Below, in pieces: positions 3,608-50,899 of a stretch of 64,000 nucleotides of DNA. Both the position numbers and the translations under genes were made by a program. Position 1 is the stretch's first letter. The number at the start of each line of letters is the position of its first letter. The stretch spans positions 186,001 to 250,000 of the forward strand of contig NZ_JANHOJ010000001.1 of NCBI RefSeq assembly GCF_026930145.1. The letters run 5' to 3'. The stretch comes from Bartonella sp. A05. GTDB lineage: Bacteria; Pseudomonadota; Alphaproteobacteria; Rhizobiales; Rhizobiaceae. Under the pieces are notes generated by a model, which was not told where the DNA came from, searched no databases, and saw nothing but the letters and a program-made list of their open reading frames with translations.

Positions 3608-4819
3608 ATGTGTACAACCTCTATGCAATCACTTTATAATGTCTTTGCTCGACGCAATTTACATTTCGAACGCGGGCATGGAGTATGGCTTATTTCTAAT
3701 AAAAGAGAGCGTTATCTTGATTTCACATCTGGTATTTCTGTCAATTCTTTAGGGTATGCTCATCCGAAACTGATTGATGCTATTAGAGTACAAGCTGAAA
3801 AACTTTGGCATGTTTCCAATCTTTTTCAATCACCTGAACAAGAAATATTTGCTGCGCGTCTTTGTGCAAACAGCTTTGCGGATAAGGTTTTTTTCTGCAA
3901 CTCTGGAGCAGAAGCATTGGAATGCGCATTCAAAACAGCTCGTCGCTATCATTATGCATCCAATCAGCCAACACGCGTTGAAATCATCACTTTTGAAGGT
4001 GCATTTCATGGCCGGACGCTCGCAACAATTGCAGCCAGCGGACAAGACAAATATCTTGAAGGTTTTGGTCCCAAAGCAGGTGGCTTTATTCAAGTTCCCT
4101 TTGGGGATGAAAAAGCTTTACGTGAGGCCATCAATGAAAAAACTGCTGCTATCCTTATTGAACCCATTCAAGGAGAAGGAGGCATTCGGACAGTATCTCA
4201 TGAAACTCTAAGACTTTTACGCAAATTATGTGATGAAAATAATCTGTTATTAATTTTAGACGAAGTACAGACCGGCATTGGACGGACAGGAAAACTTTTT
4301 GCCTATGAATGGAGCAATATTACACCTGATATTCTTACTCTCGCAAAAGGATTAGGTAGCGGATTTCCATTAGGAGCTTGTCTTGCAACCGAAAAAGCTG
4401 CAAAAAGCATGACACCAGGAACCCATGGCTCAACATTCGGAGGAAATCTTCTTGGCATGGCTGTGGGCAACAGCATTTTGGATATTATCTCAGAACCAAG
4501 CTTTTTGAATCATGTTCAAGACATGGGTAATAAGCTAAAACAAGGACTTTCCATCATCCTCGACTCTTATCCTGACGTTATTTGCTCAATTCAAGGTATG
4601 GGGCTTATGGTGGGTATTCAGTGCGTAGTTCCCCAAAATGATGTCATCAACGCATTAGAAAATGAATATATTTTGAGTGTTGGTGCCGGTAATAATATAG
4701 TACGCTTATTACCTCCTCTTATTATCACTGAAGAAGAAATGTGTGAAGGCTTGCACCGTATTGAAAAAGCAATTGCTCATCTTTCGCAGACAAATAAAAA
4801 AAGACAGAAATATGACTGA
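3608..4819 (+). CDS. argD: Acetylornithine / succinyldiaminopimelate aminotransferase
   Basis: This is a class III PLP aminotransferase of the ArgD/DapC type. It transaminates N-acetylornithine, and commonly also N-succinyl-LL-2-amino-6-oxopimelate in lysine and peptidoglycan precursor synthesis. Visible signatures are [18 protein letters not shown] (PLP phosphate binding), [26 protein letters not shown] and the lysine of [15 protein letters not shown]. The ATG at 3608 follows AAAGGAAATAATA and gives 403 residues, the usual length; an in-frame start at 3575 is less likely. The gene overlaps hslO by 8 bp, and argF, often placed between them in related bacteria, is absent. With arginine genes incomplete here, the diaminopimelate role may be what keeps it. 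Confidence 0.93.
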
Positions 4820-31833: not shown

Positions 31834-32250
31834 CTATTCTGGTATTGATGAGGATGATGACATAGGTGAAGATGGGCGTGTAATCATATAAATAGCAATG
31901 GCCAACAAAACAGTTGCAACCAATAAGGCAAGCCACAAAGCAGGATGCACCACTATCAAAAACAATAAAAAGCCTACAGCCATGCTAACCGTAGCAAAAA
32001 TTTTAACAAAAAGCGGAATAGCTCCATGTTCTTCCCATTGTTTAATGTGCTGACCAAAAACACGGTGATGATACAACCACTGGTGAAAACGCGGTGATGA
32101 ACGAGCAAAACACCATGAAGCAACCAGAAGAAAAGGTACTGTCGGCATAATAGGTAAGACTGCACCGATAACACCCAACACAACCATTACCCAACCCAAT
32201 ATCAAACAACAAATACGCACAGTGCGGGACATCTTAAGTCTTTTTTTCAT
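31834..32250 (-). CDS. DUF454 (YbaN) family inner-membrane protein
   Basis: This is a small membrane protein of the YbaN/DUF454 family, whose function is unknown. The 138-residue product has the typical pattern: RICCLILGWVMVVLGVIGAVLPIMPTVPF (paired helices with the conserved GxxLPxxPTxPF motif), WCFARSSPRFHQWL, then HRVFGQHIKQWEEHGAIP and two further membrane helices. A second ATG six codons in (32232) is an alternative start. It is the last gene on this strand after the metal transporter operon, but is separated from it by 434 bp including a small RNA candidate and terminator. Confidence 0.88.
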   Translation of the reverse strand: MKKRLKMSRTVRICCLILGWVMVVLGVIGAVLPIMPTVPFLLVASWCFARSSPRFHQWLYHHRVFGQHIKQWEEHGAIPLFVKIFATVSMAVGFLLFLIVVHPALWLALLVATVLLAIAIYMITRPSSPMSSSSSIPE

Positions 32251-32502
32251 CCTCTAGCGCCAACACTCCTCTTATTCTGCAAATATTATATATAAAGCTT
32301 TTTTATATAAAATCCCGTAGACAAATCAACTCCCTGTATTTTGCACACAATCACTGCTCAATCCTCTCGTTCATTCATAAGCATACTCTCAATCAGCAAT
32401 TTTCAGTAACGACTCTTGCAAAAGTATAAAGCAGTTTCGTGATATAATAATCATTTCAAAATTTTTAACTACCAAAACAAGTCTTTCAATGAAGAAAAAG
32501 AT

Positions 32503-32535
32503 AAAAAGGCTGCATAATAAATAATGCAGCCTTTT
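32503..32535 (-). terminator. Intrinsic terminator of the small RNA candidate / sit operon
   Basis: On the minus strand AAAAGGCTGCAT and ATGCAGCCTTTT (32524-32535 and 32504-32515 in plus coordinates) form a perfect 12-bp stem with an 8-nt loop, ending in a U-run and then AUCUUUUUC. The A-rich other side could also let it work in the plus direction. Confidence 0.9.
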
Positions 32536-32615
32536 AATTACGAATGCAGCGTTGGGAGGAGGAAATACTGCATCCATCCGCTAGATGTTGGGAGGAAAAT
32601 AATCTAGCGCGCAAT
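32503..32615 (-). ncRNA. Putative anti-Shine-Dalgarno small RNA (cuckoo/alpha-r14/CcsR-like)
   Basis: Read on the minus strand, three hairpins follow one another. Hairpin 1: GCTAGAT / ATCTAGC (32602-32608 with 32580-32586), with TTTTCCTCCCAAC in the loop. Hairpin 2: ATGCAG / CTGCAT (32568-32573 with 32544-32549), with TTTCCTCCTCCCAAC in the loop. Hairpin 3 is the intrinsic terminator. Two stem-loops that each expose CCUCCC, followed by a terminator, is the known plan of rhizobial cuckoo RNAs (alpha-r14, NfeR1) and Rhodobacter CcsR RNAs, which pair with ribosome binding sites. It starts about 70 nt after the sitD stop, so it could have its own promoter or be cut from the operon 3' end. The 5' end is an estimate. 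Confidence 0.75.
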
Positions 32616-32621
32616 TCTTTA

Positions 32622-32651
32622 ATAATAAAAAACCATCGAAACAATATACAA
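32622..32651 (-). promoter_or_regulatory. Possible promoter of the small RNA candidate
   Basis: On the minus strand TTGTAT (32651-32646) and TATTAT (32627-32622) are 18 bp apart and would start transcription near 32615, just before hairpin 1. In such AT-rich DNA this match is weak evidence. Confidence 0.35.
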
Positions 32652-32684
32652 AAACGCATGACTGCTATGCATAAATTACTACAC

Positions 32685-33590
32685 TCAAATTTTCTGAATC
32701 GCACTCCGATGAAAGAAAATTGACGTAATAATGATGATAAAAATAAGCGTTAAAATTAATACAATCGTGGAAGCAGAATCAGAACCAATGAATAAGCTTA
32801 AATAAATACCTAAAAAACTAGAAACAACTGCAACACATATAGAAATCAAAAGCATAGAAGAAAAGCGCTTTGTGACGAGATAAGAAATTGCTCCTGGTGC
32901 AATCAGTAAAGAAATAACTAAAATAATGCCAATAGCTTTTAAAGCTGCAACAATCGTAAGAGAAATCATTGTTAAAAGGGTATAATGAAGCAGTGATACC
33001 CGTAACCCAATCGCACGTCCCTGCACTGAATCAAAAATGTACAACATAAAATCGCGCCATTTTGCTCCCAGAATCAAAGTAACAATTGTAGAAATTACCG
33101 CTGTCTGCGTAATATCAAGCCAATTAACGCCCAAAAGATTTCCAAATAGAATGTGGTTTAGATCCACATCACTATAAATCGCCGTTGCCAAAACAAGCCC
33201 CAAACCAAACATAGACGAAAAAACGACTCCCATGACTGTATCCTGCTTAATACGGCTATTGCTCCCCAAAAAGCCTGTTATGATGGCACAGATCATACCA
33301 GCAACAAAAGCACCGCAAGCAATCAAAGTCATTGTGACATTGTTCGGATTCATATGCTGAACATAAGCAAACGGTAAAGAAGCCAAAAATGTCATCACCC
33401 ACGGCGTTACCATATAACCCATAACTACACCTGGAAAAACGGCATGGGAAATTGCATCTCCTAAAAGCGCCCATCCTTTCAAAATAAGAAAACAGGAAAG
33501 TACAGCCATGGGAATAGCAAGAATAATGGTAATAATGATACCCTTAATCATAAAAGAAAACTGGAAAGGAAGCAGTAATTGATCAATCAT
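32685..33590 (-). CDS. sitD: Manganese/iron ABC transporter permease (SitD/YfeD type)
   Basis: This is the second membrane permease of a cluster-9 metal ABC importer (ABC-3 family). The 301-residue product has about eight or nine hydrophobic helices, the LKGWALLGDAISHAVFPGVVMGY segment typical of the first half of ABC-3 permeases (shortened here), and the LLIAPGAISYLVTKRF region near residue 230. It overlaps the sitC stop by 4 bp (ATGA), as do all junctions in this operon, which implies coupled translation. A small RNA candidate and terminator follow. Confidence 0.9.
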   Translation of the reverse strand: MIDQLLLPFQFSFMIKGIIITIILAIPMAVLSCFLILKGWALLGDAISHAVFPGVVMGYMVTPWVMTFLASLPFAYVQHMNPNNVTMTLIACGAFVAGMICAIITGFLGSNSRIKQDTVMGVVFSSMFGLGLVLATAIYSDVDLNHILFGNLLGVNWLDITQTAVISTIVTLILGAKWRDFMLYIFDSVQGRAIGLRVSLLHYTLLTMISLTIVAALKAIGIILVISLLIAPGAISYLVTKRFSSMLLISICVAVVSSFLGIYLSLFIGSDSASTIVLILTLIFIIIITSIFFHRSAIQKI

Positions 33591-49093: not shown

Positions 49094-50899
49094 TTATTTA
49101 CTCATCTTAAGTGCTTGAATAAAGGCAGATTGCGGAATTTCCACCTTACCGAACTGACGCATCCGTTTTTTGCCCTCTTTTTGCTTTTCCAAAAGTTTGC
49201 GTTTACGAGTTACGTCACCGCCATAACATTTAGCTGTTACATCTTTGCGCAAAGCACGAATTGTTTCACGAGCAATAATTTTACCACCAACTGCCGCTTG
49301 AACTGGAATTTGAAACATATGTTGAGGAATAAGATCTTTCAGTTTTTCACACAGTGCGCGTCCGCGCTTTTCCGCTATGCTGCGATGTACAAGCATCGAT
49401 AATGCATCTATAGGTTCTGAATTCACTAGAATAGACATTTTAACCAGATCACCCTCAGAATAATCCGTCATCTGATAGTCAAACGAAGCATATCCTTTTG
49501 AAATTGACTTTAAACGATCATAAAAATCAAAAACCACCTCATTGAGAGGTAGATCATACGTCACCATAGCGCGTGTTCCTACATAGGACAAACCAGCCTG
49601 TAATCCGCGACGTTCTTGGCAAAGTTCTAAAATTGCCCCAAGATAATCACTAGGTGTCATAATTGTTGCCCGAATCCATGGCTCTTCAATAGCAGCAATT
49701 TTAACAATATCAGGCATATCAGCTGGATTGTGCAATTCCTTGACGGAACCATCATTCATCTTCATGCGATAAACAACCGAAGGTGCTGTCGCAATCAGAT
49801 CCAAATTAAATTCACGCTCTAACCGTTCTTGAATAATTTCAAGATGGAGAAGCCCTAAAAAACCACAACGAAAGCCAAAACCTAAAGCAGCTGATGTTTC
49901 CACTTCAAAGGAAAAACTCGCATCATTTAAACGCAATTTACCCATGGCAGCGCGCAAATCATCAAAATCAGCTGCATCAACTGGAAAAAGACCACAAAAA
50001 ACTACCGGTTGCGCAGGTTTAAAACCAGGCAATGCATTTTCACAAGAGCGGCGATCTTCAGTAATGGTATCCCCAACGCGGGTATCAGCCACCTCTTTAA
50101 TAGAAGCAGTGATAAAGCCAATCTCCCCTGGTCCTAATTCATCAATCTGTACCATTTTCGGGGTGAATACTCCAACTCGTTCAACTGGATATTTTGCCCC
50201 TGTACCCATCATACGAATGGCCTGACCCTTTTTCAAAACACCATCAATCACCCGTACTAAAACGATAACGCCAAGATAAGAATCATACCAGCTATCAACC
50301 AACATTGCCTTTAAAGGTTTTGTAACATCACCCATATGTGGAGATGGCAACTGTGTTACAATTGCTTCCAAGACATCAACAATACCAATACCTGTTTTTG
50401 CTGATATTTCCAAAGCTCCAGATGCATCAATTCCGATTACATCTTCAATTTGCTCTTTCACGCGCTCAGGTTCTGCAGCTGGAAGATCTACCTTATTGAG
50501 CACAACAACCAATTCATGAGAATTATCAATAGCTTGATAAACATTTGCCAAGGTTTGTGCCTCCACTCCTTGGCTTGCATCGACCACCAGCAACGACCCT
50601 TCACACGCTGCCAACGAACGCGATACCTCATAGGCAAAATCAACATGGCCAGGTGTATCAATAAGATTTAAGATATATAGTTCACCATTCTTTGCTTTAT
50701 AGTGCAAGCGCACTGTCTGTGCTTTAATGGTGATCCCACGTTCACGCTCAATATCCATGGAATCAAGAACTTGATCCTTCATCTCTCGTGTTTCAAGGCC
50801 ACCAGTCATTTGAATCAAGCGGTCAGCCAAAGTTGACTTTCCATGGTCGATATGAGCCACAATGGAGAAATTACGGATATATTTGCGATCTATTGTCAT
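49094..50899 (-). CDS. lepA: Elongation factor 4 (LepA)
   Basis: LepA is a ribosome-associated GTPase of the EF-G family that affects translation initiation and elongation under stress. The product from the ATG at 50899 has 601 residues, the standard size. G motifs are present: AHIDHGKST (G1), DTPGHVDF (G3) and [10 protein letters not shown] (G4). The C-terminal LepA-specific end ([24 protein letters not shown], parts) is complete. An extra 20-residue in-frame extension upstream is not conserved. Confidence 0.97.

Follow-up and report, generated by a model that had tools for sequence, protein, structure and literature searches.

A defining trait of alpha-r14 RNAs is the repression of mRNAs by pairing with their ribosome-binding sites, independently of Hfq. 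Within this family, LsrB is an activator of NfeR1, an RNA that uses its anti-Shine-Dalgarno (aSD) seeds to block ntrB and two transporter mRNAs (PMC10746234). A list published in 2011 counts the SmelA075 and A099 families among those represented in Bartonellaceae as well as in other bacterial families (PMC3927594). Nine years later, in 2020, the RNA BbsR14 of B. bacilliformis was detected by RNA-seq and described as having two stem-loops with TTCCTCCTAA (PMC7717549). BbsR14 is more abundant at pH 8 than at pH 6; the authors speculate on an indiscriminate repression of translation (PMC7717549). The main text of that article makes no mention of r14, cuckoo, NfeR1 or LysR, and none of the blots consulted in it shows BbsR14. 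The double TTCCTCCTAA motif occurs once in the genome of B. bacilliformis Ver097, at the locus downstream of sitD, and BbsR14 is very probably the same gene as the RNA analysed here; the published coordinates refer to strain KC583. A first, sequence-only reading of our locus had stated that no description of it was known, which fails in view of BbsR14 (PMC7717549) and of the SmelA075 and A099 families (PMC3927594). Among the papers listed by a literature search on Bartonella, VtlR, LsrB and AbcR1, none was seen to tie the Bartonella RNA to LsrB. In Rhodobacter, CcsR arises by processing of the transcript of the ccaF1 operon, with RpoHI/HII as control (PMC10253847).

The window, that is, the whole 64-kb stretch of DNA that was analysed, belongs to a Bartonella genome of 1.56 Mb in 19 contigs. 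We consider it likely that it contains an LsrB-activated, trans-acting RNA with its own promoter, an ortholog of alpha-r14/NfeR1 that would block translation initiation. The features of the locus, in window coordinates, are the following:

31834..32250, minus strand: DUF454 gene, the downstream neighbour (Pfam PF04304)
32503..32609, minus strand: small RNA of about 107 nt (ar14 match, genus model and fold; 5' end predicted)
32503..32535, minus strand: intrinsic terminator with a 12-bp stem (terminator scan)
32540..32577, minus strand: hairpin 2, 11-bp stem, with the anti-SD loop CUCCUCCC at 32554-32561 (fold)
32579..32609, minus strand: hairpin 1, 8-bp stem, with the anti-SD loop UCCUCCC at 32590-32596 (fold)
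32616..32621, minus strand: putative -10 TAAAGA (position only; 17-nt spacer; column identity 0.75, no better than the flank)
32639..32644, minus strand: putative -35 TTGTTT (mean column identity 0.92 over 39 loci; weak consensus)
32656..32671, minus strand: conserved dyad TGCATAGCAGTCATGC, candidate LsrB/VtlR (LysR-type) box (consensus fit and position)
32685..33590, minus strand: sitD, last gene of sitABCD, the neighbour on the other side (Pfam ABC-3, PF00950)

Both the fold and the terminator scan confirmed what had been read from the letters, namely two hairpins with CCUCCC loops followed by a 12-bp terminator on the minus strand. The description of both stems as perfect stands for the 8 bp of hairpin 1, whereas the 11 bp of hairpin 2 are perfect only when G-U pairs are allowed. 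The minimum fold energy is -46.3 kcal/mol for 161 nt (z = -5.3), and none of 200 shuffled sequences was equally stable. When both strands of the 64 kb were scanned for stems of at least 7 pairs (at least 2 of them G-C) enclosing a loop of at most 20 nt with CCTCC, the only sites found were hairpins 1 and 2 on the minus strand and one plus-strand site at 50560. The terminator loop of the window copy reads UAUUUAUU and is without anti-SD sequence; judged against ar14 RNAs of the bee lineage and others, this copy lacks the canonical third anti-SD loop. The 5' end of the transcript is probably near 32609, and therefore 32610-32651 would be promoter; of the span 32503-32651 originally given for the candidate, the part from 32503 to 32609 is probably the RNA itself.

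At the Rfam gathering thresholds, the scan of the window gave one tRNA and no small RNA. Under relaxed settings, RF02344 (ar14) matched end to end over 32501-32615, spanning all 123 model positions with 46.7 bits (E 1.1e-7), which is below the curated cut-off of 58.8; this is the search that had been proposed as a check, and its result bears out the suggested link to the alpha-r14/cuckoo/NfeR1 family, although under the cut-off. Five other matches of the relaxed scan in the window scored far under their cut-offs and were dismissed. The whole genome contains one ar14 match. Across Bartonella, the Rfam model matches at E<=1 in 41 of 71 genomes and above the cut-off in 14 of 71. In the wider family, ar14 was found at E 1e-4 in 194 of the 199 genomes drawn (above the cut-off in 183), as compared to 0 of 14 control genomes; at E 1 one of the 14 controls matched, below the cut-off, and at E 10 nine matched, none above it. 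Several bee-lineage genomes (G003, G004, G014 and others) have a second, weaker ar14 match elsewhere, at about 47-58 bits. Canonical alpha-r14 RNAs have three hairpins each with CCUCCUCCC; the window copy has three hairpins, two of which carry an aSD loop. Its place downstream of sitD and its dyad spacing are those of the bee-lineage members scoring above the cut-off, which indicates common descent with accepted alpha-r14 members. On sequence grounds, the window RNA is a diverged relative, and by position an ortholog, of alpha-r14/NfeR1.

With a covariance model built from 47 Bartonella loci, the RNA was detected in every one of the 71 Bartonella genomes, many of the matches being there by construction or closely related to the training set. 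The window copy, itself a training sequence, matches over 32504-32612 with 115.9 bits. Second strong copies are present in G007, G008 and G052, the record of the latter having 10% contamination. Covariation was analysed in 46 distinct sequences. With a reference structure taken from one of them, which favours this structure over slid ones, standard pairs were found in 93.9% of cells, as compared to 27-48% when the partner was slid by 1-3 columns. Changes on both sides were seen at 9 pairs, the shuffles averaging 4.9 and attaining 9 in 2 of 500 cases, and in 39 cells, a number reached by 0 of 500 shuffles, while further pair types were weakly above the shuffles (33 of 500 reach the observed value). 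In hairpin 1, 92.1% of cells are paired and 5 of 8 pairs show both-side changes; the corresponding values for hairpin 2 are 95.5% and 2 of 11.

Conservation of the loops in relatives, also proposed at the outset as a check, was found for the stems and for loop 1, in which CCTCC is retained in 47 of 48 loci (the exception being L036), and to a lesser extent for loop 2, which has CCTCC in 21 of 48 loci and a run of 4-11 C in the remaining 27. The length of this C-tract varies among closely related species (L033-L078) and could be prone to slippage. CCTCC in the terminator (third) loop is limited, within the 48 loci, to the 9 of the bee lineage; outside these, L017 also has it. All three loops therefore carry the motif in 9 of 9 bee-lineage orthologs, and 30 ar14 loci from other genera of the family, judged by eye, mostly have three such loops. 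The simplest reading would be a stepwise loss of seeds, from three to two (the window) to one plus a C-tract, and this series offers a way to find out what number of seeds an RNA of this kind requires. It is doubtful that the tract length slips within a strain, which would make the RNA a contingency locus with a seed tuned by phase variation; if this were true, the window copy with its ancestral CUCCUCCC would represent the stable reference. The pure C-tract seen in 27 of the 48 loci fits the binding of a protein better than the pairing with a Shine-Dalgarno (SD) sequence, and the pyrimidine loops might accordingly be seen as a decoy for a non-mRNA ligand, e.g., a ribosomal or other RNA-binding protein. 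This role appears very improbable to us, given that CCTCC is retained in loop 1 of all loci except one and that base pairing is how NfeR1, the nearest relative with experimental tests, works (PMC10746234).

The RNA gene lies next to sitABCD and on the same strand, as had been noted, with 75 nt, rather than about 70, from the sitD stop to the predicted start at 32609. The sit operon encodes a ZnuA-type SitA, an ABC ATPase and two ABC-3 permeases. The best relatives of SitD are Bartonella proteins (80-85% identity in 38 non-bee loci), and in 38 of these 38 loci the RNA is found closely 3' of sitD. This arrangement, together with the result of a scan that shows no terminator between sitD and the RNA and with the seventh place of sitB when 44 window starts were ranked by a crude score for pairing (see below), is what one would expect if the RNA were a 3'-UTR product, cut from the sitABCD transcript as CcsR is from that of ccaF1 and linking metal import to translational repression. 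Such an origin, put forward by the sequence-only reading, is in our opinion highly unlikely. In the bee lineage (9 of 9 loci), an ar14 match above the cut-off lies 921-925 nt after sitD, past an intact ORF, and the dyad is still with the RNA:

L068-L070 and L072-L077, about 3926-4750: GT25-type ORF between sitD and the RNA

This ORF has 257-273 aa in seven loci, and 7 of 7 tested are GT25 glycosyltransferases by Pfam; in L073 and L074 a comparable ORF is obtained when a TTG is taken as its start, the Pfam analysis having covered the other seven. In B. bacilliformis (L067, 3890-4420), two tandem copies of the RNA each follow a related, inexact dyad-like element, and the presence of this element before the second copy, which has one CCTCC loop only, also argues against a 3'-UTR product. 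Moreover, ar14 scored above the cut-off in 0 of 31 non-Bartonella sitD loci scanned from a set of 33 (L094 and L111 were left out, and a few flanks were short), so that the location beside sit seems peculiar to Bartonella. Since in both arrangements the dyad accompanies the RNA rather than sitD, the element belongs to the RNA gene; a derivation from sitD is unsupported.

Among the matches listed, the dyad is found 42-44 nt before the model start in at least 66 of 74 strong copies and in at least 65 of 71 genomes. The 74 copies are the strong matches of the genus model, 12 weak ones (E 4.5e-4 to 0.0092) being left out. No exact dyad is among the matches listed near the copies of G009, G012 and G030, near both copies of G008 and near one copy of G007; those of G069 and G070 lie outside the dyad matches listed. 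The form TGCATA.CAG..ATGC is present directly upstream of the RNA in both the sitD-adjacent and the bee-lineage arrangement. In the genome of the window, TGCATANCAGNCATGC occurs once at 0 mismatches and the looser GCATNNCAGNNATGC twice. Three further sites with 1 mismatch, two inside ORFs and one in an ORF-poor stretch, were rejected as chance occurrences.

In B. abortus and A. tumefaciens, LsrB has the published consensus GCAT-N3-TG-N3-T (PMC8844928). Read on its reverse strand, the dyad fits this consensus in 50 of 52 upstream regions, and it is missed by one base in L055 (B. phoceensis) and in the first copy of L067 (B. bacilliformis). Shuffling the 75-nt upstream stretch 2000 times produced the consensus, on either strand, in 107 cases, and the 64 kb contain it 10 times. 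Because the motif is short, the case for LsrB rests on the fixed position and inheritance of the element rather than on the match by itself. With no match in the sigma-70 scan at the site, the putative -35 included, the core promoter is a weak one. When compared with the LsrB-dependent sigma-70 promoter of NfeR1, the upstream region has the consensus and a weak core promoter, with binding as a prediction, and a dependence on an activator would fit such a core.

The dyad followed by TTTTT may also be looked at as the intrinsic terminator of sitABCD, with an ordinary promoter for the RNA and no LysR control. A short stem and then a T-run are indeed found in the window and in most non-bee relatives, and the core -35/-10 could work without an activator. 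In the nine bee-lineage loci, however, the dyad is far from sitD and has no T-run after it, the sequence there being ATAATTG, AATATTG or AGAATTA, and the only site reported by the terminator scan is that at 32504-32535. We therefore judge this interpretation unlikely and favour a LysR-controlled promoter.

One gene with a LysR substrate domain was found in the genome of the window. It lies directly 3' of trxB, and a weak AbcR (ar15) candidate comes directly after it:

L153, 2770-2895, 3023-3928 and 3980-4954: trxB, the LysR-type gene and the AbcR candidate, taken together

The AbcR candidate has 21.5 bits against a cut-off of 40, and 8 of 14 control genomes also match at an E limit of 1; it was accepted as a positional hint only. 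The order is the same as trxB-vtlR-abcR in Agrobacterium (PMC7486931). Numbered from the GTG start chosen, the LysR-type protein has cysteines at 144 and 274, the conserved pair in the LsrB proteins of A. tumefaciens, S. meliloti and B. abortus being C144 and C273 (PMC11975290). The regulator is probably LsrB/VtlR-like and redox-sensing. LsrB of S. meliloti reportedly does not control AbcR RNAs under the conditions tested (PMC7486931); as the targets of VtlR/LsrB vary between species, and in view of this case, control cannot be transferred by homology alone.

The model of an LsrB-activated RNA draws on the structure, covariation, genus-wide conservation, dyad inheritance, motif match and presence of the regulator gene observed here, and on the published RNA-seq of the probable B. 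bacilliformis ortholog and LsrB activation and ribosome-binding-site blocking by NfeR1. Its transcription start, the binding of LsrB at the dyad, translational repression and the identity of the targets are predicted. The LsrB/VtlR-like protein probably binds the dyad at 32656-32671 and would activate transcription from about 32609. The RNA would then fold into two hairpins displaying single-stranded CCUCCC and end at the intrinsic terminator, and each loop could pair with SD sequences (GGGAGG/GGAGG), blocking the loading of ribosomes on some mRNAs.

The pairing of the loops was scored crudely on 44 window starts (picked by a script for ORFs of 120 aa or more, accessibility ignored), and because of the choice of starts and the neglect of accessibility the ranking names candidates, not targets. 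The first of the 44 is ilvD, with -16.0 kcal/mol for loop 1 (SD AGGGGGGGAAAA), and the second is the leader of the downstream DUF454 gene (window 32250, minus strand; -12.7). sitB is seventh (-10.5), sitA 42nd (-2.1), and sitC and sitD fall in the middle and lower part. The proposed link to metal import is not borne out by this score, sitA being 42nd, although the places of sitB and of the DUF454 gene weaken the case against a regulation of neighbours; this regulation is neither shown nor excluded by the ranks. As a separate observation, the G-tract SD of ilvD (window 16468, minus strand), AGGGGGGG, pairs best with both loops among the 44 starts. In the whole genome, GGGAGGA shortly before ATG shows up 21 times (one site counted twice), as against 5 times for the reversed control. 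Only 5 separate sites are followed by ORFs of more than 200 aa, and perfect partner sites are thus few.

An unannotated Bartonella locus is in this way turned into a testable circuit made of one LysR-type, probably redox-sensing regulator and one anti-SD RNA, in the setting of a reduced genome in which one such regulator was found. The window RNA can be described as a rhizobial-type RNA minus one of its three binding loops, with a promoter of its own that seems to be LysR-controlled, and it probably silences genes by covering ribosome-binding sites. The orphan BbsR14 may be explained as an alpha-r14 ortholog.

Among the known systems, AbcR1/2 (alpha-r15) resemble the window RNA in their aSD-based repression and, for some of them, in the control by VtlR/LsrB (PMC8844928, PMC7486931). 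They belong to another family, and in this genome the weak AbcR candidate has its own locus beside lysR. The likeness to CcsR1-4 of Rhodobacter sphaeroides suggested by the sequence-only reading holds for the two hairpins with anti-SD loops (RSs0680a, PMC3927594) and not for the origin from the ccaF1 operon: unlike CcsR, encoded in a ccaF1 (DUF1127) operon, the window RNA has sitD (ABC-3) and DUF454 as neighbours and a separate promoter is likely. With respect to BbsR14, whose loops read CCUCCUAA, those of the window RNA read CCUCCCAA, and B. bacilliformis carries a second tandem copy, unlike the window locus with its single RNA. Compared to alpha-r14/NfeR1, the window RNA has two aSD loops and not three, loop 1 is shorter and U-rich, the half-site spacing of the box differs from the TGCA-N6-GCAT of NfeR1, and the one match in the genome has 46.7 bits against 58.8. 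With the same family (cuckoo, SmelA075) it shares the length, the hairpin plan, the CCUCCUCCC-type loops, the terminator in last position and, as a candidate, a LysR-type (LsrB-like) site upstream.
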